Source of the DNA: a virus
Length of the DNA stretch: 31,955 nt
Reading direction: 5' to 3' (one strand)
Virus record (IMG/VR): IMGVR_UViG_3300023235_000082
Location: 1-31,955 of that record
The stretch's first letter is position 1. Each line of letters opens with the position of its first letter. Below are positions 1 to 13,747 of this stretch, piece by piece. The translations under genes were made by a program, and so were the position numbers. The notes beneath the pieces are model-generated. The model made no database searches. It worked only from the letters and a program-made list of their open reading frames with translations, and was not told where the DNA came from.

Positions 1-300
1 ATAGATGCTGGCATATTAGTGAATGTATCAGATGAAAATCTAAAGACTCTGGTCACACACCTTAAAGGTAAAGAGTTTAGTGACATGAGAAAATGGGTTG
101 TCAATAACCTTGACAATGATCCTGTTAAGATTTTTAGAAAGATATATGATACATTATATACTAATTTAGAACCATCTACAATACCTCATGCTGTATTAAT
201 CATTGCTGATTATCAGTATAAGTCGAGTTTTGTGAGCGACCAGGAAATTAATTTAGTTGCCTGTTTAACTGAACTAATGTCACAGGTGAAATTTAAATAA
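1..300 (+). CDS. 44: Sliding-clamp loader large subunit gp44, C-terminal part (5' truncated)
   Basis: The frame is open from base 1, so this is the last 99 residues of a longer protein. The segment around HAVLIIADYQYKSSFVSDQE and the final NLVACLTELM match the C-terminal collar region of T4 gp44, the ATPase subunit that forms the 4:1 complex with gp62 and loads the gp45 clamp onto DNA. The AAA+ ATPase motifs lie upstream of the window. A GTG at 19 is only an internal valine. In T4 gene 62 follows directly; here an HNH endonuclease gene sits between the two. Identification rests on recognised sequence and on the 44-62-regA-43 order. Confidence 0.88.
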   Translation: MDAGILVNVSDENLKTLVTHLKGKEFSDMRKWVVNNLDNDPVKIFRKIYDTLYTNLEPSTIPHAVLIIADYQYKSSFVSDQEINLVACLTELMSQVKFK

Positions 301-1009: not shown

Positions 1010-1405
1010 ATGAACAAAGACTACCAATTATCAGAATATCTTAACTCCATAAACTTTACTAAAAAGGACTTAATGAAGTCCGAAGATAAAGAGTGGATCA
1101 GAAAATATCCTGCTTTTATAATCAATAAGATATTGTCTGGCTTTTCAGATACCATAATGCTTGTAAATGAAGTGAATCGTAATCACTTCCTAGATAAAGA
1201 TATGCAATATCAATTTCTACTAAATAGTATTAGATCAAAGAAAAGGTTTAGTCCTTTTTTAAGAGCGAGTAAGTTGAAAGATATTGAGTGTGTAAAAGAG
1301 TTTTATGGATATAGTAATGAAAAGGCAAAGTCCGCTCTTGATATACTCACCAAAGATCAATTGAAAAATATTAAAGAGAAATTATATAAAGGTGGGATAA
1401 AATGA
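1010..1405 (+). CDS. 62: Sliding-clamp loader small subunit gp62
   Basis: This 131-residue protein matches gp62, the non-ATPase subunit that completes the gp44/gp62 clamp loader. Recognisable segments are the N-terminal YQLSEYLNSINFTKKDLM and the central FIINKILSGFSDTIMLVNEV and NRNHFLDKDMQYQFLLNSI. It is shorter than T4 gp62 (187 residues), as in many marine T4-likes. The start follows TAGGAAAATAT. It ends in an ATGA overlap with regA, so the two are probably translationally coupled. Confidence 0.85.
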   Translation: MNKDYQLSEYLNSINFTKKDLMKSEDKEWIRKYPAFIINKILSGFSDTIMLVNEVNRNHFLDKDMQYQFLLNSIRSKKRFSPFLRASKLKDIECVKEFYGYSNEKAKSALDILTKDQLKNIKEKLYKGGIK

Positions 1406-1827
1406 ATGGATTAGATAATACTTGGCATCCGGAGAAGATGTTAGAAGTACAGTTAAAAGAACCTGATGACTTTCTAAAAGTTAGGGAGACTTTAACCAGA
1501 ATAGGTGTGGCGTCAAGAAAAGATAAAAAGTTATTTCAATCTTGTCACATTTTACATAAACAAGGAAGATATTTTATAGTGCATTTCAAAGAGTTATTTG
1601 CTTTAGATGGCAAAGAATCAAACTTTTCTGAAAATGACGCTGAACGAAGAAATACAATTACCCAACTATTAAGTGATTGGGGATTAATTGCTATATTAAA
1701 CAATTCAATTGCTGAAAAGAAAGCACCTCTATCACAAATCAAAGTATTAAGTTTTAAAGAAAAAGGTGAGTGGGATCTTCAAGCTAAATATAATATAGGT
1801 AAAAAAATAGAAAATGAAAGCGCCTAA
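1402..1827 (+). CDS. regA: RegA translational repressor
   Basis: A 141-residue protein (T4 RegA is 122) with the family's features: the MLEVQLKEPDDFLKVRETLT region, TRIGVASRKDKKLFQSCHIL, and GRYFIVHFKELFALDG. RegA binds AU-rich ribosome-binding regions of early phage mRNAs and blocks initiation, including those for replication genes and itself. Position between 62 and 43 matches T4, although here a RimK-like gene intervenes before 43. Its ATG overlaps the gene 62 stop, and its 3' end overlaps the next gene by 14 bases. Confidence 0.9.
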   Translation: MNGLDNTWHPEKMLEVQLKEPDDFLKVRETLTRIGVASRKDKKLFQSCHILHKQGRYFIVHFKELFALDGKESNFSENDAERRNTITQLLSDWGLIAILNNSIAEKKAPLSQIKVLSFKEKGEWDLQAKYNIGKKIENESA

Positions 1828-3196
1828 GTTTAAAGAATTCATATCTGAAGCTAAAGACAACAAAAAATACAAGTTGTTAATTATAACAGATGAACCAGAA
1901 AAAGCAAAAACTTTTCATACTGCTAATAGATTGCAAGAAGAAGCAGAAAAATTAGGATGGAAAAGTTATCTTTATAGACTCTCTGGTGGTTATACATCAT
2001 ACGAAGATAGTATTTTTAAATTGCATAATAAAGAAGATGAAAAAGGCTTTGAAGTTTCTCCTATTGATACAATTGCAATCATAAGAGGTTCTGTTGTAAG
2101 AAAAGATAGTTGGTTAGACATTATTTCTACTTTAGAAAAACATAGTATATGTGTAGTCAATAGCAGACAGACCATTAATGTATGTGCTGATAAGTATAGA
2201 ACTTCATTAAGACTTTCAGACTATGGTATTAAACAACCTAAAACTGTTTTGATAAATGATCCTGAAAAATCAGTATTAGCATTTGATAAACTAGACACAA
2301 ACTTTCCTGTTATAATGAAAACATTAAGAGGGTCAAAAGGTGTTGGTGTATTATTTATTGAGTCAGAAAAATCATTAGATAGTATCGTACAGTTAATTAA
2401 TAAACAGGATGAAGATACTGATTTACTTTTACAAGAATATATTAAAACTGATTATGATGTTAGAGTATTAGTATTAGGTGGTAAGGTACTTGCTACAATG
2501 AAACGACCTGTAATTGAGGGCGACTTTAGAAGTAATGTATCTTTAGGTTCTAAACCAGAAAAAATTAAACTAACAGAAATAGAAATAGAAGCAAGTTTAC
2601 TAGCTGCAAAAGCAGTTAATGGAGTATGGACTGCTGTTGATTTTATACCAAGTAGAAATAGAGAAAAGGATGCTCCATTTATTATTGAAGTAAATTCTTC
2701 TCCCGGCACAGAAGGTATAGAAGAAGCAAGTGGGCAGAATATTAGTAAAGAAATTATTACTTTCTTTTCAGAAAAAAAAAATTGGGTAAAAGTACCTAGT
2801 GAGTGTGGGTACAAAGAGATAGTTTCAATTAAACCTTTTGGCGAAATAGTTGCTAAATTTGATACAGGTAATTCTGGTATGTCAGTTATTCATGCTAACA
2901 ATATGAAAGTTATTGGCAAGCAAATCAAATGGACTTTACTAGGCAAAACTATTACAAGTGATATTATTCGTAAAGAGGATATCAAAGTTGGCGGTTTAAG
3001 AAACTATGAAGAAGACCGATATGTAGTTAAACTTGATGTAGATTTTTTAGGTGGTTTATATGAAGTAGAATTTACATTAGACGATAGAGAAGAAAGAACA
3101 CCTATACTATTTGACAGAGCATTTATGGACAGAATAAATGTCATGGTAAATCCAGCAAGAAAATATGTAGTAACAACCAAATATAGTTTAGAATAA
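1814..3196 (+). CDS. RimK-like ATP-grasp ligase fused to a retropepsin-like (RimB/zinc-protease family) domain
   Basis: A 460-residue two-domain protein. Residues about 20-310 form an ATP-grasp ligase of the RimK type: CADKYRTSLRLSDYG, VIMKTLRGSKGVGVLFIES, LLLQEYIKTDYDVRVLVLGG and the metal-binding IIEVNSSPG. RimK enzymes add glutamate or similar amino acids to protein C-termini. Residues about 325-460 resemble the RimK-associated retropepsin-like family: KFDTGNSGMSVIHA holds the D-T-G active-site motif and PILFDRAFMDRINVMVN is the distal strand. The N-terminus MKAPKFKEFISEA resembles the T4 capsid-targeting leader with a gp21-type I-S-E site. It overlaps regA by 14 bases. Substrate unknown; the fold calls are confident, the leader role is inferred. 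Confidence 0.82.
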   Translation: MKAPKFKEFISEAKDNKKYKLLIITDEPEKAKTFHTANRLQEEAEKLGWKSYLYRLSGGYTSYEDSIFKLHNKEDEKGFEVSPIDTIAIIRGSVVRKDSWLDIISTLEKHSICVVNSRQTINVCADKYRTSLRLSDYGIKQPKTVLINDPEKSVLAFDKLDTNFPVIMKTLRGSKGVGVLFIESEKSLDSIVQLINKQDEDTDLLLQEYIKTDYDVRVLVLGGKVLATMKRPVIEGDFRSNVSLGSKPEKIKLTEIEIEASLLAAKAVNGVWTAVDFIPSRNREKDAPFIIEVNSSPGTEGIEEASGQNISKEIITFFSEKKNWVKVPSECGYKEIVSIKPFGEIVAKFDTGNSGMSVIHANNMKVIGKQIKWTLLGKTITSDIIRKEDIKVGGLRNYEEDRYVVKLDVDFLGGLYEVEFTLDDREERTPILFDRAFMDRINVMVNPARKYVVTTKYSLE

Positions 3197-3489: not shown

Positions 3490-5985
3490 ATGAAATTCTA
3501 TACTTCGGTATTGCCATATCGTGGCAGGCTATTGGTTCGTGGTGTAAACCATGATGGTAGTCATAAGAAGTTTAGAATCAATTATAAACCATCCCTATTC
3601 ATACCATCAGGTAAAGAATCAAAATATAAAACACTAGACGGTCGTAATGTAGGTAAGGTTACTTTCGAAAGTATACCTGAAGCGAAGAAGTGGATTGAAC
3701 AGTATAAAGGTGTTAGTGATTTTAAATACTATGGTAATACAAAATATCAATATCCATTTATCGCAGACGAATTTCCTGACAAGATTGATTGGGATATCAA
3801 ACAGATAAGAATACTTACAATTGATATCGAGTGTGAGAGTGAGAATGGTTTCCCAAATCCAGATGAGGCAGATCAGCCTTTAATATCTATAACAGTAAAA
3901 GAACATACAACAAAGAAGATCATAGTCTTTGGTATGAATGACTTTGTGAATGATCGTGATGATGTAAAGTTTTTCAAGTGCGAAACTGAAATAGCATTGA
4001 TTGAAAAGTTTTTAGAATTCTGGACAGATTATAATCCTGACATTATCACAGGTTGGAATGTTAAATTCTTTGATATACCTTTTCTAATGAATAGATTTAG
4101 AAGACTCATGGGTGATGAATATATATTACAGTTTAGTCCATGGGGTATTGTAAGTGAGAGTAGCGTTAAAGTTAGTGGTTGGGAAAACAAACAAGAGAAG
4201 AAGACTTGGGATATGATGGGTATCGCTGTATTAGATTACCTTGACCTATATCGTAAGCATACATTTGTTAGACGTGAGAGTTATAGACTAGATCATATAG
4301 GTGATGTAGAACTAGGTGAGAAGAAACACGAGAATCCTTATGACACATTTAAAGAGTTTTATCAAAAAGACTATCAACAGTTTATAGAATATAATATACA
4401 AGATGTAGAACTTGTTGATAAGTTAGAAGACAAGATGAAATTGATCGAGTTGCATTTGACCATGGCGTATGAGGCAAAAGTTAATTATCAAGATTGTTTT
4501 GGTCAAGTTCGTATATGGGATACTATTATATTCAATCATCTAAAATCTAAAAATATTGTTGCACCTGCCATCATAGAACAAAAAGTATCAAGAGGTTATG
4601 AAGGTGCCTATGTAAAAGATCCTGTTGTAGGTTTTCATGATTGGATTGTAAGTTTTGATTTAAACAGTTTGTATCCGCATTTAATTATGCAATACAATAT
4701 CTCTCCTGAAACAATGATTGGTTATGACGAAGGTGTTGTTAATGTAGAAAATATGTTAAATCAAAAATCTGACTTGTCTGGTTTAGATGGCGCCACTATC
4801 ACTCCCAATGGTGCTAAATTTAGAACAGACAAGCAGGGTTTTTTACCTGAACTAATGGATAAATTATACAAAGAGAGAGTTATATATAAGAATAAGATGG
4901 CTAAGTCAAAGGCATTGTATGAGGAAACAGGTGATGAAAGATTAAAGAATGATATAACTAAAAATTATAATATACAACTGTCAAGAAAGATTGCTTTGAA
5001 TAGTGCCTATGGTGCTATCGGTAATCAATACTTTAGATACTATGATGTAAGACACGCTGAAGGTATTACAATGGCAGGTCAGTTGACAATCAGATGGATT
5101 GAACGTGATGTGAATGAGTATCTGAATAAACTATTAGGCACTAAAAGTGTAGCCTATGTTGTTGCGTCTGATACAGATTCAATCTATATCAAACTAGGCG
5201 GAATGGTTGATAAGATATTCAAAGATAAATCTGACAATAGAAAGATTGTAAAAATATTAGATAAGTTTTCTGAAGAAAAACTACAACCATTTATTGATTC
5301 TAGTTTCGCTAAACTAGCAAAGTATGTTAATGCATACGATCAGAAAATGATTATGAAACGAGAAGTAATTGCCAACAAAGGTATATGGACTGCAAAGAAA
5401 AGATATATTTTAAATGTATTTAATGAAGAAGGTCTTGACCTAAAAGAACCTAAACTAAAAATTATGGGTATTGAGGCAGTTAAGTCTTCAACTCCTGCAC
5501 CTTGTCGTGTAAAGATTAAAGAGGCTATAAAAGTTATTATGAATAAAGATGAATCGGCATTGATTGATTTCATAGAAAATTTTAGAACACACTTTAGAAA
5601 GTTACCACCAGAAGAAATTGCTTATCCTAGAAGTTGTAATAATCTTAAAAAGTATTCTTCCACAAAAGATATATATCAGAAGGCAACACCTATTCATGTG
5701 AGAGGTGCTTTACTTTATAACAATCTATTGAAGAAACACAAACTATCAAAATATGAAACAATACAAAGTGGTGATAAGATTAAGTTTATATCATTAAAAG
5801 AACCTAATACTTTAAGAGAGAATGTTATATCATTTTCAAATCAACTACCAAAAGAATTTAAACTACATCAATATATCGATTATGATGAGATGTTTACTAA
5901 ATCGTTCTTAGAACCATTAAGATTTATTGTAAATGCAATAGGGTGGAACTTTGAAAAGAAATCAAACCTAGATGAATTTTTTTAA
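3490..5985 (+). CDS. 43: DNA polymerase gp43 (family B)
   Basis: A complete 831-residue family B replicative polymerase (T4 gp43 is 898). The 3'-5' exonuclease is marked by TIDIECE near residue 111 and by ITGWNVKFFDIPFL. The polymerase domain has motif A DLNSLYPHLIMQYN near 390, motif B KIALNSAYGAIGNQYF near 500 and motif C ASDTDSIYI near 560. The last residues EKKSNLDEFF resemble the hydrophobic-acidic C-terminal peptide by which T4 and RB69 gp43 bind the gp45 clamp; the next two proteins carry the same tail. No Shine-Dalgarno is visible before the ATG (AGATATAATATAA), so translation may be weak, or subject to RegA or self-repression as in T4. Confidence 0.97.
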   Translation: MKFYTSVLPYRGRLLVRGVNHDGSHKKFRINYKPSLFIPSGKESKYKTLDGRNVGKVTFESIPEAKKWIEQYKGVSDFKYYGNTKYQYPFIADEFPDKIDWDIKQIRILTIDIECESENGFPNPDEADQPLISITVKEHTTKKIIVFGMNDFVNDRDDVKFFKCETEIALIEKFLEFWTDYNPDIITGWNVKFFDIPFLMNRFRRLMGDEYILQFSPWGIVSESSVKVSGWENKQEKKTWDMMGIAVLDYLDLYRKHTFVRRESYRLDHIGDVELGEKKHENPYDTFKEFYQKDYQQFIEYNIQDVELVDKLEDKMKLIELHLTMAYEAKVNYQDCFGQVRIWDTIIFNHLKSKNIVAPAIIEQKVSRGYEGAYVKDPVVGFHDWIVSFDLNSLYPHLIMQYNISPETMIGYDEGVVNVENMLNQKSDLSGLDGATITPNGAKFRTDKQGFLPELMDKLYKERVIYKNKMAKSKALYEETGDERLKNDITKNYNIQLSRKIALNSAYGAIGNQYFRYYDVRHAEGITMAGQLTIRWIERDVNEYLNKLLGTKSVAYVVASDTDSIYIKLGGMVDKIFKDKSDNRKIVKILDKFSEEKLQPFIDSSFAKLAKYVNAYDQKMIMKREVIANKGIWTAKKRYILNVFNEEGLDLKEPKLKIMGIEAVKSSTPAPCRVKIKEAIKVIMNKDESALIDFIENFRTHFRKLPPEEIAYPRSCNNLKKYSSTKDIYQKATPIHVRGALLYNNLLKKHKLSKYETIQSGDKIKFISLKEPNTLRENVISFSNQLPKEFKLHQYIDYDEMFTKSFLEPLRFIVNAIGWNFEKKSNLDEFF

Positions 5986-5988
5986 AAT

Positions 5989-7305
5989 ATGAAAGACTAT
6001 ACTAGAAACAATACATTATATAAACGTTTATTAGAAGCCGCTGGTGATGATAAGTTACCTGTGTTAGATAATAAAACATTTGAATCAATGAACGCAGAAT
6101 ACGGCAAAGAAGATATGAGAAAGAATCTTGCCGACTATATTGCAACTGAGCGACCTGTATTTCCTTTGAAAGAAATATCAGAAGATGATATGAGAGATAG
6201 CTTTAATTCTTTAAAGAACTTTAATACTAACTCTATATGTACACCTAAAGATCAAGTTGACAAAGAAGTCTTTGAAAAGTATGATGATTATGAATATAGT
6301 TATGATAAGTACGGCATAGGTTTGATTAACGGTCCAAGCACATACAATAACGTATCAAACTATTTCATGCAAGATTTAAGATTAGAGTGTGGCAGTTATG
6401 GGTTCAGAGCACCTAAAGAGGTATGGGAAAACGGTGACGCATATGCTATATGGAAATGTCTAGGTCCTATATGGCGTGGCATTAATGATGTTAAGAAAAA
6501 AACTGTTAGAGATTTAGATGGTACTGAAACCGAACAATTACTAGGCGGTTCATTAACTCACAAAAGTTATATGAGTGCCTTTAGATTAGGTACCTATATC
6601 GCAACACAATTTAAACCTGTTGTTGCAAAAGCAATATATGATATGACAAATGCTAAAACTGTATTAGATACAAGTTGTGGCTGGGGTGATAGACTTGCAG
6701 GTTTCTTTGCTAGTGATGCCGAAGAATACTATGGTTGTGATCCTAATCCTAATACATATGCTAGATATACACAACAGATTTCAAAATATAATAAACTATT
6801 GTCAAAACCTAAGAAGGTAACTATCTGGAGATGTGGTGCTGAAGATTTACCTTATCACAAGCTGCCACCGATAGATGTTGCCTTCACCTCCCCACCATAT
6901 TTCTCAACAGAAGAATACAATAAGGGTGGTGAGTTTCAAGAAGATCAATCGTGGTCTAAATTCAATGAGTACGAGAAATGGCGTGATGAATTTTATTTAC
7001 CTGTTGCTGAGAAGTCAATGGCAGTATCAAAGTTTCTATTTGTGAATATCATGGATCCTAAGATCAAGGGTACTAGATATAGATCAAGTGATGAGTTAGT
7101 CAATAGATTAAAAGATAAGTTTCTAGGTCAGATCGGTATGAGAATCATGCAAAGACCTAAATCAGATAAACTATTTGCAGATGACAAGGCAAAGGCTGAC
7201 TTTATGAATAAGTTGTTTATAGAGAATGTATGGTGTTTTGGTAATAAAGATTTTGATCTATTTCAAAATTCAAGAAAAGGAAATTTAGATGAGTTTTTTG
7301 GATGA
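5989..7305 (+). CDS. DNA methyltransferase-like protein with clamp-binding tail
   Basis: A 438-residue protein with a Rossmann SAM-dependent DNA methyltransferase core. Motif I is VLDTSCGWGDRLAGFF (from residue 225) and motif IV is TSPPYF (S301-P302-P303-Y304), the amino-methyltransferase type that acts on exocyclic N of adenine or cytosine. A roughly 220-residue N-terminal extension has no motif I recognise. It ends KGNLDEFFG, the same tail as the polymerase and the next protein. The N-terminus MKDYTRNNTLYKRLLEA weakly resembles a capsid-targeting leader. It starts 3 nt after gene 43 without a clear ribosome-binding site and overlaps the Mom-like gene (ATGA), so the two probably act together in DNA modification. 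Target base unknown. Confidence 0.8.
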   Translation: MKDYTRNNTLYKRLLEAAGDDKLPVLDNKTFESMNAEYGKEDMRKNLADYIATERPVFPLKEISEDDMRDSFNSLKNFNTNSICTPKDQVDKEVFEKYDDYEYSYDKYGIGLINGPSTYNNVSNYFMQDLRLECGSYGFRAPKEVWENGDAYAIWKCLGPIWRGINDVKKKTVRDLDGTETEQLLGGSLTHKSYMSAFRLGTYIATQFKPVVAKAIYDMTNAKTVLDTSCGWGDRLAGFFASDAEEYYGCDPNPNTYARYTQQISKYNKLLSKPKKVTIWRCGAEDLPYHKLPPIDVAFTSPPYFSTEEYNKGGEFQEDQSWSKFNEYEKWRDEFYLPVAEKSMAVSKFLFVNIMDPKIKGTRYRSSDELVNRLKDKFLGQIGMRIMQRPKSDKLFADDKAKADFMNKLFIENVWCFGNKDFDLFQNSRKGNLDEFFG

Positions 7306-8087
7306 TAAAAGAAATACATAAAGTTAAAGCTGCTGAATTTATAATGTCAAGACATTATTCACCAGTTATGCCTAGATTAACAAAATATTATTGTGGTTAT
7401 TATGTTGATAACACACTACAAGGAGTTATTACTTTTGGATGGGGTACTAGACCTAAACATACTATACAGAAATTGTTTCCAAAACTAGATACAAAAGATT
7501 ATTATGAAATTGGCAAGATGTGTATGGATGATTCTATGTTAAAAAATTCAGAAACGCAAATGTTATCAAGTGCATTAAGATGGTTAAAAAATAAAGAACC
7601 AAATTTAAAATATTTATTTACTTGGGCAGATGGTTTAGTAGGTAAAGCAGGTTATGTATATCAAGCATTTAATTTTTTGTATGGCGGTTACATTTGGACA
7701 GATACTTATGTCACAGAAAAAGGTGAAAAAGTACATCCTAGAACAATGCAAGGTAAAATACCAAATACTAAAAATAGAAAAGTAGGTATGCGACCAAACC
7801 CAAAACAATTGATAGAATTAAAATTAAGTAGAGTAAAGGGTAAACAATTTAGATACATTTTACCTATGAATAAAAAGATGAGAAAGTATCTAAAAAATAG
7901 TACTGAGAAGTGGGGTCTTAATTATCCAAAAGATACAGCTTTAGAATGGAAAATAAAAAGACCAGGCGAAACCTCATATACAGAAACAAATAAAATGCCA
8001 TTTAACTTGACTAAAGAAGTAGAATATAATAAAAATAATATTAATAAGTTTAAAATAAAGAATAATTTAGATGAGTTTTTTGCTTGA
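7302..8087 (+). CDS. Mom-like GNAT-fold DNA modification protein with clamp-binding tail
   Basis: A 261-residue protein resembling the phage Mu Mom family of GNAT-like enzymes, which convert adenine in DNA to an N6-carbamoylmethyl form. Visible matches are FIMSRHYSPVMPRL, LQGVITFGWGTRP, YYEIGKMCMDDSMLKNSET, a WLKNKEPNLKYLFTWADG strand-helix segment, and YQAFNFLYGG. The C-terminus KIKNNLDEFFA carries the same NLDEFF tail as the two upstream proteins. It overlaps the methyltransferase gene by 4 bases. I infer an adenine hypermodification that protects phage DNA, done at the fork through the clamp. Fold assignment is moderately sure, chemistry is inferred. Confidence 0.65.
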   Translation: MIKEIHKVKAAEFIMSRHYSPVMPRLTKYYCGYYVDNTLQGVITFGWGTRPKHTIQKLFPKLDTKDYYEIGKMCMDDSMLKNSETQMLSSALRWLKNKEPNLKYLFTWADGLVGKAGYVYQAFNFLYGGYIWTDTYVTEKGEKVHPRTMQGKIPNTKNRKVGMRPNPKQLIELKLSRVKGKQFRYILPMNKKMRKYLKNSTEKWGLNYPKDTALEWKIKRPGETSYTETNKMPFNLTKEVEYNKNNINKFKIKNNLDEFFA

Positions 8088-8149: not shown

Positions 8150-9199
8150 ATGAGTGATTTTTTAAAAGACATAATAAAAGAAACTGGTAATGAATATGCC
8201 AGTCTAGTATCAGACGGTGCTTCAGGTGATGTTGATTCGTTTATAGATACAGGTTCATATATATTCAATGCCTTATTAGGCGGCTCTATTCATAGAGGAC
8301 TGCCATCAAATAAGATAACAGCAATTGCAGGTGAAAGTGCCACAGGTAAAACTTTCTTTGTATTAGGTATGTGTAAAAACTTCCTTGACAAGAATCCTGA
8401 TGGTGGAGTAATATTCTTTGAATCAGAATCAGCAATTACTAAAGAGATTATAGAAGAAAGAGGAATTGATAGTACTAGAATGGTTGTAATGCCAGTCACT
8501 ACTGTACAAGAATTTAGACATCAAGCTCTTACTGTGCTTGAAAAATATACACAACAGAATGCTTCTGAAAAGAAACCATTACTATTAGTATTAGATAGTT
8601 TAGGTATGCTATCCACCACAAAAGAAATTGAAGATACAGCAGACGGAAAAGAAACTAAAGATATGACAAGGGCACAAATTGTAAAAGCAGCCTTTAGAGT
8701 ATTAACTTTAAAATTAGGTAAGGCAAAAGTGCCTTTGATTATTACTAATCATACATATGATGTTATTGGTTCTATGTTCCCACAAAAAGAAATGGGTGGT
8801 GGATCAGGATTGAAATATGCAGCGTCATCAATCGTATATCTATCTAAAAGAAAAGAGAAAGATGGTACAGAAGTTATTGGTAATATAATACATTGTAAGA
8901 ATTATAAATCAAGATTAACTAAAGAAAACAAAGTTGTAGATGTTAGATTAACCTACAGCAAAGGTTTAGATAGATACTACGGTCTACTAGACTTGGCTTT
9001 AAAACATAATATATTTAAACAAGTTTCTACTAGGATTGAATTACCAGACGGAACAAAAACATTTGGTAAAACTATTAATAATGACCCTAAAAAATATTTC
9101 ACTAAAGAGATACTAGAACAATTAGATGGAGTGTGTAGCAAAGAGTTTAAATATGGAGATGGAGTTGAAGTCGATACCGAAACCTCACAAGACGACTAA
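8150..9199 (+). CDS. uvsX: UvsX RecA-like recombinase
   Basis: A 349-residue RecA-family strand-exchange ATPase. Walker A is AGESATGKT near residues 60-68, Walker B is [11 protein letters not shown] near 144-154, and the conserved region [20 protein letters not shown] follows. UvsX forms presynaptic filaments for recombination-dependent replication and repair, with UvsY and Dda as partners in T4. Start chosen at the ATG following CGAGGATAATTA. It has its own strong promoter and precedes the helicase gene 41 as in many marine T4-likes. Confidence 0.93.
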
Positions 9200-9221: not shown

Positions 9222-9497
9222 GTGTTTGTAGAAAAACCTGGACAGGATTTTACAGCACTTAAACTTATTAGTGGTCCATTTTCATCAATAGTTTATAAGT
9301 ACGGCGCCGTTGGGATCAGACCTGAGTCTGAAAAAAGACCTGATGGTACTTTGCCTATGCAATTTGACTATACTATTATAGAGAATAATATTGAAGCAGA
9401 TTGTGATAGTCAAGAATTTATTAACCATGTCGGCGATATACTTGTTGTGTTGCTTGATGAAAAACTAAAAGAAGATAAACTAAATGCCAAGAATTGA
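9222..9497 (+). CDS. Conserved small protein between uvsX and helicase
   Basis: The frame is open from an ATG at 9126 inside uvsX, but I prefer GTG 9222. It follows an AGGGAAG ribosome-binding site, does not overlap uvsX, and starts just before the conserved FVEKPGQDFTALKLISGPF. This gives 91 residues; ATGs at 9153 and 9159 are alternatives. The C-terminal part EFINHVGDILVVLLDEKL is predicted helical. Related short proteins occur between uvsX and 41 in marine T4-like phages; no function is known to me. It overlaps gene 41 by 14 bases, so the two are probably coupled. Confidence 0.62.
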   Translation: MFVEKPGQDFTALKLISGPFSSIVYKYGAVGIRPESEKRPDGTLPMQFDYTIIENNIEADCDSQEFINHVGDILVVLLDEKLKEDKLNAKN

Positions 9498-10860
9498 ACA
9501 AACAACTTTAAGTAATTTAATACATAACGAAGAATATACTAGAAAAGTTTTACCTTTTATCAAAGAAGAATACTTTGCTGATAGACTAGAAGGATTATTA
9601 TTCTCTGAGATATATCGTTTTGTTGACAAGTATAATAATCTACCAACAAAAGAATCTTTATCTATCGAAATGAACTCTAATAAGAGCGTCAATGAAGATG
9701 AATACAAAAAGATAACAGATATATTATCCACATTAAATAAAGAGCCAGTAAATTTAGAATGGCTATTAGAAACCACAGAAAAGTTTTGTAAAGATCGTGC
9801 CATACACAATGCGATACTTGGTGGTATTCAAATACTTGATGGCAAAGATAAAAAACATACCCCAGAATATCTACCTGAATTATTATCAGGTGCATTAGGT
9901 GTATCGTTTGACCAGAAAGTTGGGCATGATTATCTATTAGACTCAGAAGAAAGATATAATTTCTATAAGAAAAAAGAAGAAAGACTTGAATTAGATTTAG
10001 ATTTCTTTAACAAAATTACAAGAGGTGGTATACCAAGTAAGACTTTGAATATTTGTCTTGCAGGTACCGGTGTAGGTAAGACAATGTTTATGACACACCT
10101 TGCTTCATCTATATTATTACAAGGCAAGAATGTATTATACATTACTATGGAAATGGCAGAAGAAAGAATTGCTGAAAGAATAGATGCTAATCTATTAAAT
10201 GTTGGCATGAGTGATCTTGAAGAATTACCATACTCAATGTATGAAACAAAGATAAACAAATTACAAAGCAAGACGACAGGTAAGTTAATTATCAAAGAAT
10301 ATCCTACTGCGTCTGCTCATACAGGTCACTTCAAGAATCTATTGAGTGAGTTGTCTATGAAGAAATCATTTAAACCAGATATCATATTTGTTGATTATCT
10401 AAACATATGTTCTAGTGCTAGATTTAAGGCAGGTGCAAGTGTTAATAGTTATACTTACATTAAATCAATTGCTGAAGAATTAAGAGGTCTTGCAGTTGAG
10501 AATGATGTGCCTATATTCTCTGCTACACAAACTACAAGAGGTGGTTTTGTAAGTAGTGATGTAGGATTAGAAGATACATCTGAGAGTTTTGGTCTTCCTG
10601 CAACAGCAGACTTTATGTTTGCTTTGATTAGTAGTGAAGAACTAGAAGAAAAAAATCAGATAATGGTTAAACAATTAAAGAATAGATATAATGATCCAAC
10701 GATCAATAGAAAGTTTATTCTTGGTGTTGATAGATCAAAGATGAGATTCTATGATGTAGAACAATCAGCACAAACAAATTTAGTTGAAAGTGGTCAAACA
10801 CCTACGACTGATAATAAATTCGGGAAGAAATTAGGTCAATTCTCGGACTTTAAAATATAA
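9484..10860 (+). CDS. 41: Replicative DNA helicase gp41 (DnaB-like)
   Basis: A 458-residue RecA-fold hexameric helicase that unwinds DNA ahead of the phage fork and pairs with primase gp61. The N-terminal domain (IEQTTLSNLIHNEEYTRKVL) is of the DnaB type. Walker A AGTGVGKTM lies near 193-201, Walker B DIIFVDYLNI near 300, and the helicase signature TQTTRGGF near 350 and LKNRYNDP follow. Length is close to T4 gp41 (475). It overlaps the preceding small gene by 14 bases. Confidence 0.95.
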   Translation: MPRIEQTTLSNLIHNEEYTRKVLPFIKEEYFADRLEGLLFSEIYRFVDKYNNLPTKESLSIEMNSNKSVNEDEYKKITDILSTLNKEPVNLEWLLETTEKFCKDRAIHNAILGGIQILDGKDKKHTPEYLPELLSGALGVSFDQKVGHDYLLDSEERYNFYKKKEERLELDLDFFNKITRGGIPSKTLNICLAGTGVGKTMFMTHLASSILLQGKNVLYITMEMAEERIAERIDANLLNVGMSDLEELPYSMYETKINKLQSKTTGKLIIKEYPTASAHTGHFKNLLSELSMKKSFKPDIIFVDYLNICSSARFKAGASVNSYTYIKSIAEELRGLAVENDVPIFSATQTTRGGFVSSDVGLEDTSESFGLPATADFMFALISSEELEEKNQIMVKQLKNRYNDPTINRKFILGVDRSKMRFYDVEQSAQTNLVESGQTPTTDNKFGKKLGQFSDFKI

Positions 10861-13102: not shown

Positions 13103-13747
13103 ATGTTTATTTATCTTACTAATAATTTAATAAATGGTAAAAAGTATATAGGTGTATGCACAAGGAATAGTGAATCTTACTTAGGAAGTGGAACACTATT
13201 AAAGGCAGCTATAAAAAAATACGGAAGACAAAATTTCAAAAGAACAATATTAGAACATTGTTCCAGTCCTAAAGAAACATATAGCAAAGAAATATACTAT
13301 ATCCAAAAATATAACGCTGTAAAATCTGATGAGTTTTATAACTTATCGTATGGTGGTAACGGTGGTAATTCCGAAACTCAAAAAGAATACTGGTCTAACA
13401 TAGAAGATAACACGGTTGCCAGAAATTGGAGCAGAGTTCCAACTTATAGTATGTTAGGTAAAAAACATAGTGATAAAACTAAAAGACTTATAGGTTCTAA
13501 AAGTGTGAATAGAAATTGGGGTAGAAAAACTCCAGTTACAGGACACAATAATCCTAGAGCAAAAGAATGTTATGTTAATAACAAATATTATCAATGCTTA
13601 AAATATTTTTGGAATGAAAATCAAGATATACCATATTCATCATTAAAAGGTGCTGCTAGTGGCAACGGTTACCTTAAAAAATACAATTTAACAGTTATGT
13701 ATAAAGATACATTAAAAATAGAAAGGTCAGGTGCTCCGAATGTTTAG
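13103..13747 (+). CDS. GIY-YIG homing endonuclease (first copy)
   Basis: A 214-residue protein beginning with a GIY-YIG nuclease domain: MFIYLTNNLINGKKYIGVCT, then LGSGTLLKAAIKKYGRQNF and FYNLSYGGNGGN. The C-terminal half is basic with NUMOD-like DNA-binding segments (MLGKKHSDKTKRLIGSKSVN and YYQCLKYFWNEN). A good AAAGAGGACA ribosome-binding site precedes it. Its stop codon lies inside the first codons of the ligase-like gene (ATG 13740), so insertion happened exactly at that gene's 5' edge. A second, unrelated-in-detail GIY-YIG gene lies at its 3' edge. Confidence 0.85.
   Translation: MFIYLTNNLINGKKYIGVCTRNSESYLGSGTLLKAAIKKYGRQNFKRTILEHCSSPKETYSKEIYYIQKYNAVKSDEFYNLSYGGNGGNSETQKEYWSNIEDNTVARNWSRVPTYSMLGKKHSDKTKRLIGSKSVNRNWGRKTPVTGHNNPRAKECYVNNKYYQCLKYFWNENQDIPYSSLKGAASGNGYLKKYNLTVMYKDTLKIERSGAPNV

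Follow-up and report, generated by a model that had tools for sequence, protein, structure and literature searches.

A polymerase-like C-terminal tail on phage DNA-modification enzymes suggests tethering to the gp45 sliding clamp

Why should a phage DNA polymerase and the two DNA-modifying enzymes encoded next to it end in the same short peptide? The question is raised by an IMG/VR virus record of 31,955 bases, analyzed here over its full length (the window). It is a T4-like fragment with the gene order gp44 (end), gp62, regA, ATP-grasp protein, small protein, gp43, methyltransferase (MTase), Mom, uvsX and gp41; gp45 is absent because the record begins inside gp44. A sequence-only reading had claimed that gp43, MTase and Mom are consecutive, share NLDEFF ends and are otherwise unrelated. 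This proved exact: the three genes follow one another on the plus strand, and their products terminate in EKKSNLDEFF (gp43), SRKGNLDEFFG (MTase) and KIKNNLDEFFA (Mom). By profile and fold matches they belong to three different families, a family-B polymerase, an MTase and a GNAT-fold Mom protein. When all ORFs of the window were checked, no other ended in an NLDEFF-type tail.

The three tailed proteins and their neighborhood

The fragment opens with the C-terminal part of the clamp loader gp44 (1..300, plus strand; phrog_168) and the clamp loader subunit gp62 (1010..1405, plus strand; PF16790, phrog_225). The polymerase gene (3490..5985, plus strand, 831 aa) matches PF00136/PF03104 and phrog_262 (1082 bits), and its product is nearest to cyanophage gp43, at ~53% identity. 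It has the attributes of T4 gp43, namely a family-B polymerase with an exonuclease domain, encoded in a gp44-gp62-regA neighborhood. The RB69 and T4 gp43 sequences from the PDB align with it through the C-terminus, where EKKASLFDMF of RB69 gp43 lies opposite EKKSNLDEFF, and the putative clamp-binding tail NLDEFF is encoded at 5965..5982 (plus strand).

The MTase-like protein (5989..7305, plus strand, 438 aa) scores 22.2 bits against PF01555, below the cut-off of 26.7, and matches phrog_12517, which is also matched by a clear PF01555 MTase (L246). The motifs SPPY (residues 301-304) and DTSCGWG (residues 227-233) are invariant across 19 homologues. Judged by the sub-cut-off PF01555 match and the phrog_12517 link, it is probably a diverged N6/N4-type enzyme. 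Its AlphaFold model is weak (pLDDT 61.6) and was left out of the fold searches. The tail NLDEFFG, present also in near homologues, occupies 7282..7302 (plus strand).

The start of the Mom gene (7302..8087, plus strand, 261 aa) overlaps the MTase stop (ATGA). The protein scores 171 bits against PF25680 (cut-off 27.1), and its predicted fold is GNAT-like, as in the family, with Mu Mom (8bv8) as the best match (E 4e-13). Between the core and the tail NLDEFFA (8064..8084, plus strand), which recurs in Mom homologues, lies a linker (7986..8063, plus strand) that differs among homologues in length and sequence; the last residues are modeled at low confidence (pLDDT ~55). The next gene, uvsX recombinase (8150..9199, plus strand; PF00154), is untailed and served as a negative control.

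Other features of the window were recorded in passing. An ATP-grasp RimK-like protein (1814-3196, phrog_2599) lies directly upstream of gp43, and the cultured phage Melnitz has an annotated counterpart in the equivalent place (82-1131). A phrog_5104 protein between gp44 and gp62 (331-996) resembles a homing endonuclease, and a second homing-endonuclease match (phrog_314) lies at 13103-13747. Homologues of the gp41 helicase (9484-10860) have a short C-terminal peptide of their own in common (KFSDFK[IV]-like), which might be a docking tail too.

Conservation of the tail and its link to gp45

Tail counts among IMG/VR homologues were taken from complete C-termini only. Comparing the C-termini of homologues, as the sequence-only reading had proposed, we found the tail in 79/79 Mom proteins (from a sample of 80 loci), with or without a neighboring gp43 or MTase gene, and in 74/75 near MTase homologues, mostly on contigs without a Mom gene in view; the sole untailed one (L114) is a stop-loss after NLDDFF. 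The implied peculiarity of this cassette thus falls away, since Mom and the MTase are each tailed also where the other is missing. The pattern also fits 141 of the 144 gp43 homologues and 64 of the 65 TET homologues, and was absent from uvsX (0/86), gp41 (0/15) and the C5-MTases adjoining the TETs (0/66). In Mom, the 18 residues preceding the tail show a mean pairwise identity of ~25%, against 89% at the L, F and F positions of the tail. A variable, flexible linker ahead of the tail is therefore evident for Mom; the MTase linker is short, and the MTase model poor.

One real counter-example was found. A distant MTase clade of 10 loci (the L007-L017 group and L050) ends in SRRATLF, three residues shorter, apparently through a three-residue deletion within the tail, while gp43 and Mom on contigs of this clade retain full tails. 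An untailed modification enzyme beside a tailed polymerase, which the sequence-only reading had named as evidence against its idea, thus occurs in this one clade only.

Two further arrangements were seen among these loci. In L165 (4010-6194) and its relatives L168-L238 a C5-MTase adjoins a TET dioxygenase, and the TET is tailed and the C5-MTase never; a different C5-MTase family (L244, L293) is itself tailed. In L107, a 133-aa protein ending in TTLDEFFA (1723-2124) occupies the place of Mom directly after a tailed MTase. It has an HNH-like pattern by eye and no Pfam match, and the two may form a clamp-tethered MTase and nuclease pair.

Could such endings coincide by chance, as a common hydrophobic terminus? 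A loose motif, LxxF[FLMYIW], ends ~2% of random windows, so that counts from it alone mean little, and we relied instead on a tighter motif, family-level conservation and gene length. The tighter pattern [NST]L[DENSQK]xF[FLMI]x(0-2) stands at the end of 4 of 51,302 internal windows in long ORFs of relatives (8e-5), which gives ~0.003 expected matches in a few tens of genes; three were observed, and they are adjacent. Together with the conservation in Mom and MTase homologues, this leaves coincidence a negligible probability, and the shared tail is not chance. The tail might instead reflect the DNA, if the end of a gene had recently been duplicated or converted, or if it held a conserved signal for translating the gene that follows. 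In favor of this, the MTase and Mom tails have 19 nucleotides in common (AATTTAGATGAGTTTTTTG), and the sequence immediately ahead of the Mom start is partly occupied by the MTase tail. The gp43 tail, however, uses other codons, and among homologues the tail codons differ while L, F and F are kept; it is therefore the peptide that is conserved, not the DNA, and gene conversion is rejected on this codon variation. The tail also persists where the next gene is different or more distant, and in unrelated IMG/VR families, so we regard an origin at the DNA level as very improbable.

The tail is a hydrophobic and acidic peptide of the LxxF[FL] type at the extreme C-terminus, as in the T4-type motif, and its occurrence follows that of gp45. 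A gp45 gene (PF09116) is present in 11/11 tested tailed contigs of at least 50 kb, and the five contigs without one are all of 44 kb or less. Among 15 cultured phages with a Mom gene, two (Melnitz and PX29) combine a gp45 gene with a tailed Mom and the 13 without gp45 have an untailed Mom, a correspondence expected by chance in 1/105. PX29 Mom, ~29% identical to the Mom of the window, ends in GLTDLFGDF and the gp43 of PX29 in SLTDLFGDW; by sequence, the Mom tail there takes after that of the polymerase encoded in the same genome. A loose-pattern match in an Elizabethkingia Mom (LIQFINDI) was set aside as chance, as that genome has no gp45 match and the strict motif does not fit.

In Melnitz, the only annotated proteins with a strict tail are gp43, Mom and protein 6, a TET/JBP dioxygenase (PF12851). 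In the deposited record (MZ577098), Mom (69571-70380) is annotated as 'DUF465' and the TET dioxygenase (5208-6194) as 'hypothetical protein'.

Recurrence of the tail on other protein families

IMG/VR was also scanned at the DNA level for ORFs ending in [NSTI]L[DE][DE]FF(x)-TAA, independently of protein family; the resulting family counts are a sample and not a census. The scans returned at least 264 ORF ends, at least 227 of them in ORFs of 60 aa or more. Among the matches listed, 154/227 are gp43 polymerases and 73 are not, and about 60 of these 73 belong to DNA-modification families: TET/JBP dioxygenases, C5 and N6/N4 MTases, TAGT and alpha-glucosyltransferases, and Mom. By family there are at least 22 TETs, 15 C5-MTases, 7 TAGT glycosyltransferases, 6 group-1 glycosyltransferases (whose DNA target is inferred), 4 MTases of the type in the window, 3 homologues of T4 alpha-glucosyltransferase (alpha-GT), 2 Mom proteins, 2 copies of the late sigma factor gp55, 2 members of a 307-424 aa family without assignment and ten singletons. 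Phage structural proteins are absent from the assigned matches listed. The singletons listed include two N6/N4 MTases, one HNH protein and one T5orf172-domain (GIY-YIG-type) protein; because the tail is also found on these last two, it appears to be a general client tag and not one specific to modification.

A census of the fetched loci added a tailed 5-hmdU kinase domain protein (L293, PF18723), a tailed amino acid:DNA transferase (L495, PF18724), a tailed GNAT protein (L299) and a second tailed MTase (L246). Three tailed genes stand together in 23 loci, for example gp43, TET and TAGT in L188 and L455. Tailed proteins of unassigned function are encoded in L384 (2945-4258), L418 (5668-6939), L244 (4759-6018), L210 (5927-7222) and L453 (1430-2011); if the rule developed below holds, they are candidates for new DNA-modification enzymes or other clamp clients.

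Tethering to the clamp and comparison with known systems

We propose that the tail is a T4-type sliding-clamp-binding motif. The extreme C-termini of the MTase and Mom would dock, like that of gp43, on the hydrophobic patch of the ring-shaped gp45 trimer, and a flexible linker would hold each enzyme to its docked tail. Such a tether would concentrate post-replicative modification enzymes on clamp-bearing, freshly copied phage DNA, which could then be modified ahead of host restriction. Many families of phage DNA-modifying enzymes would have gained this clamp-tail solution independently of one another.

That the tail tethers the MTase and Mom to gp45 is, in our assessment, highly probable. The sequence-only reading had both enzymes riding the clamp at the fork, and the first half of that claim is strongly supported by comparison, through the conservation of the tail, its dependence on gp45, the match in PX29 and its recurrence on unrelated families and on gp55; physical binding of the tails to gp45 is very likely on the same grounds. 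That the enzymes act at the fork or closely behind it is an inference, for which the balance is only somewhat favorable.

The closest competing explanation keeps the clamp and moves the site of action: the enzymes would ride gp45 to mark phage against host DNA, or for processivity on any clamp-loaded DNA (nicks, recombination intermediates, late-transcribed DNA), and not for the fork as such. Away from the polymerase, orphan gp45 clamps move along DNA and have a role in late transcription (PMC2988020, PMC9690074), and gp55 and nucleases bear the same tail; nothing in the sequences speaks against this account, which differs from fork action only in where the enzymes work, and we hold it to be a serious possibility, if the less probable of the two. 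More distant is the proposal that gp45 is uninvolved and the tail contacts another replisome protein or serves as a signal for stability or degradation. The gp43 and gp55 tails, however, are established gp45 ligands (PMC2988020), cultured phages have a tailed Mom only if they encode gp45, the PX29 tail takes the form of its polymerase, and uvsX and gp41 carry no tail, all of which make it improbable.

These modification-enzyme families act on DNA already made, and the likely benefit of clamp tethering is therefore rapid, phage-specific modification of clamp-marked DNA. As a general rule, which we think likely, phages with a T4-type gp45 clamp would arrange post-replicative DNA hypermodification as a clamp-tethered toolbelt, in which many unrelated families (MTases, TET oxidases, glycosyltransferases, 5-hmdU kinase, amino acid:DNA transferase and Mom) would each have acquired the polymerase's tail and up to three clients could share a trimeric ring. 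If true, this would explain how nascent DNA is protected in time in phages that modify after synthesis, and how their own genome is singled out for modification. The tail would also serve as a sequence tag for modification enzymes and other clamp clients, several of unassigned function among them. A link between replication and phage DNA modification has long been suggested by T4 alpha-GT and gp45; with short peptides and the culturable Melnitz it becomes directly testable.

Both the tail motif itself and the notion that a modification enzyme can bind a clamp (T4 alpha-GT with gp45, DNMT1 with PCNA) are already known. The searchable literature gave no account of the tail as a rule repeated across Mom, MTases, TETs, TAGTs and others in gp45 phages. 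Modification enzymes with such tails were not described in the open-access papers searched, and as subscription papers lay outside the scope of the search, this absence is not proof.

In T4, the C-termini of gp43, gp55 and gp33 resemble one another, bind gp45 and can be freely interchanged, and the gp55 linker varies and tolerates change (PMC2988020). According to the same source, RB69 gp45 was co-crystallized with the last 11 residues of gp43, and the 11-mer lies on the gp45 hydrophobic patch. T4 gp43 ends in ASLDFLFG and T4 gp55 in SLDFLYEAND. The tails described here resemble those of T4 and RB69 in being extreme C-terminal hydrophobic and acidic peptides, often after a variable linker, and differ in standing on DNA-modifying enzymes, for which such tails are undescribed in the papers found. 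Mu Mom (PF25680, PDB 8bv8) has the fold and family of the window's Mom, with 30% identity over 188 residues, but Mu is without gp45, and its Mom is without linker and tail.

A clamp-bound phage modification enzyme is not without precedent: T4 alpha-GT binds gp45 according to PMC13216743, citing Sommer 2004. It is, like the enzymes proposed here, a post-replicative phage DNA modification enzyme bound to the sliding clamp, although that 2026 study puts most of its contribution to glucosylation down to expression and not to clamp binding. Unlike them, it has no C-terminal tail (it ends in FKEQFDIITK), whereas metagenomic alpha-GT homologues such as that of L302 do (TSLEDFFG); inspection of the C-termini of T4's own Dam, alpha-GT and beta-GT revealed no tail. 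The DNA methyltransferase DNMT1 is similarly tethered on newly replicated DNA to a sliding clamp, in its case PCNA, which it binds through a PIP motif (PMC9690074); it differs in performing eukaryotic maintenance methylation with another motif on another clamp.
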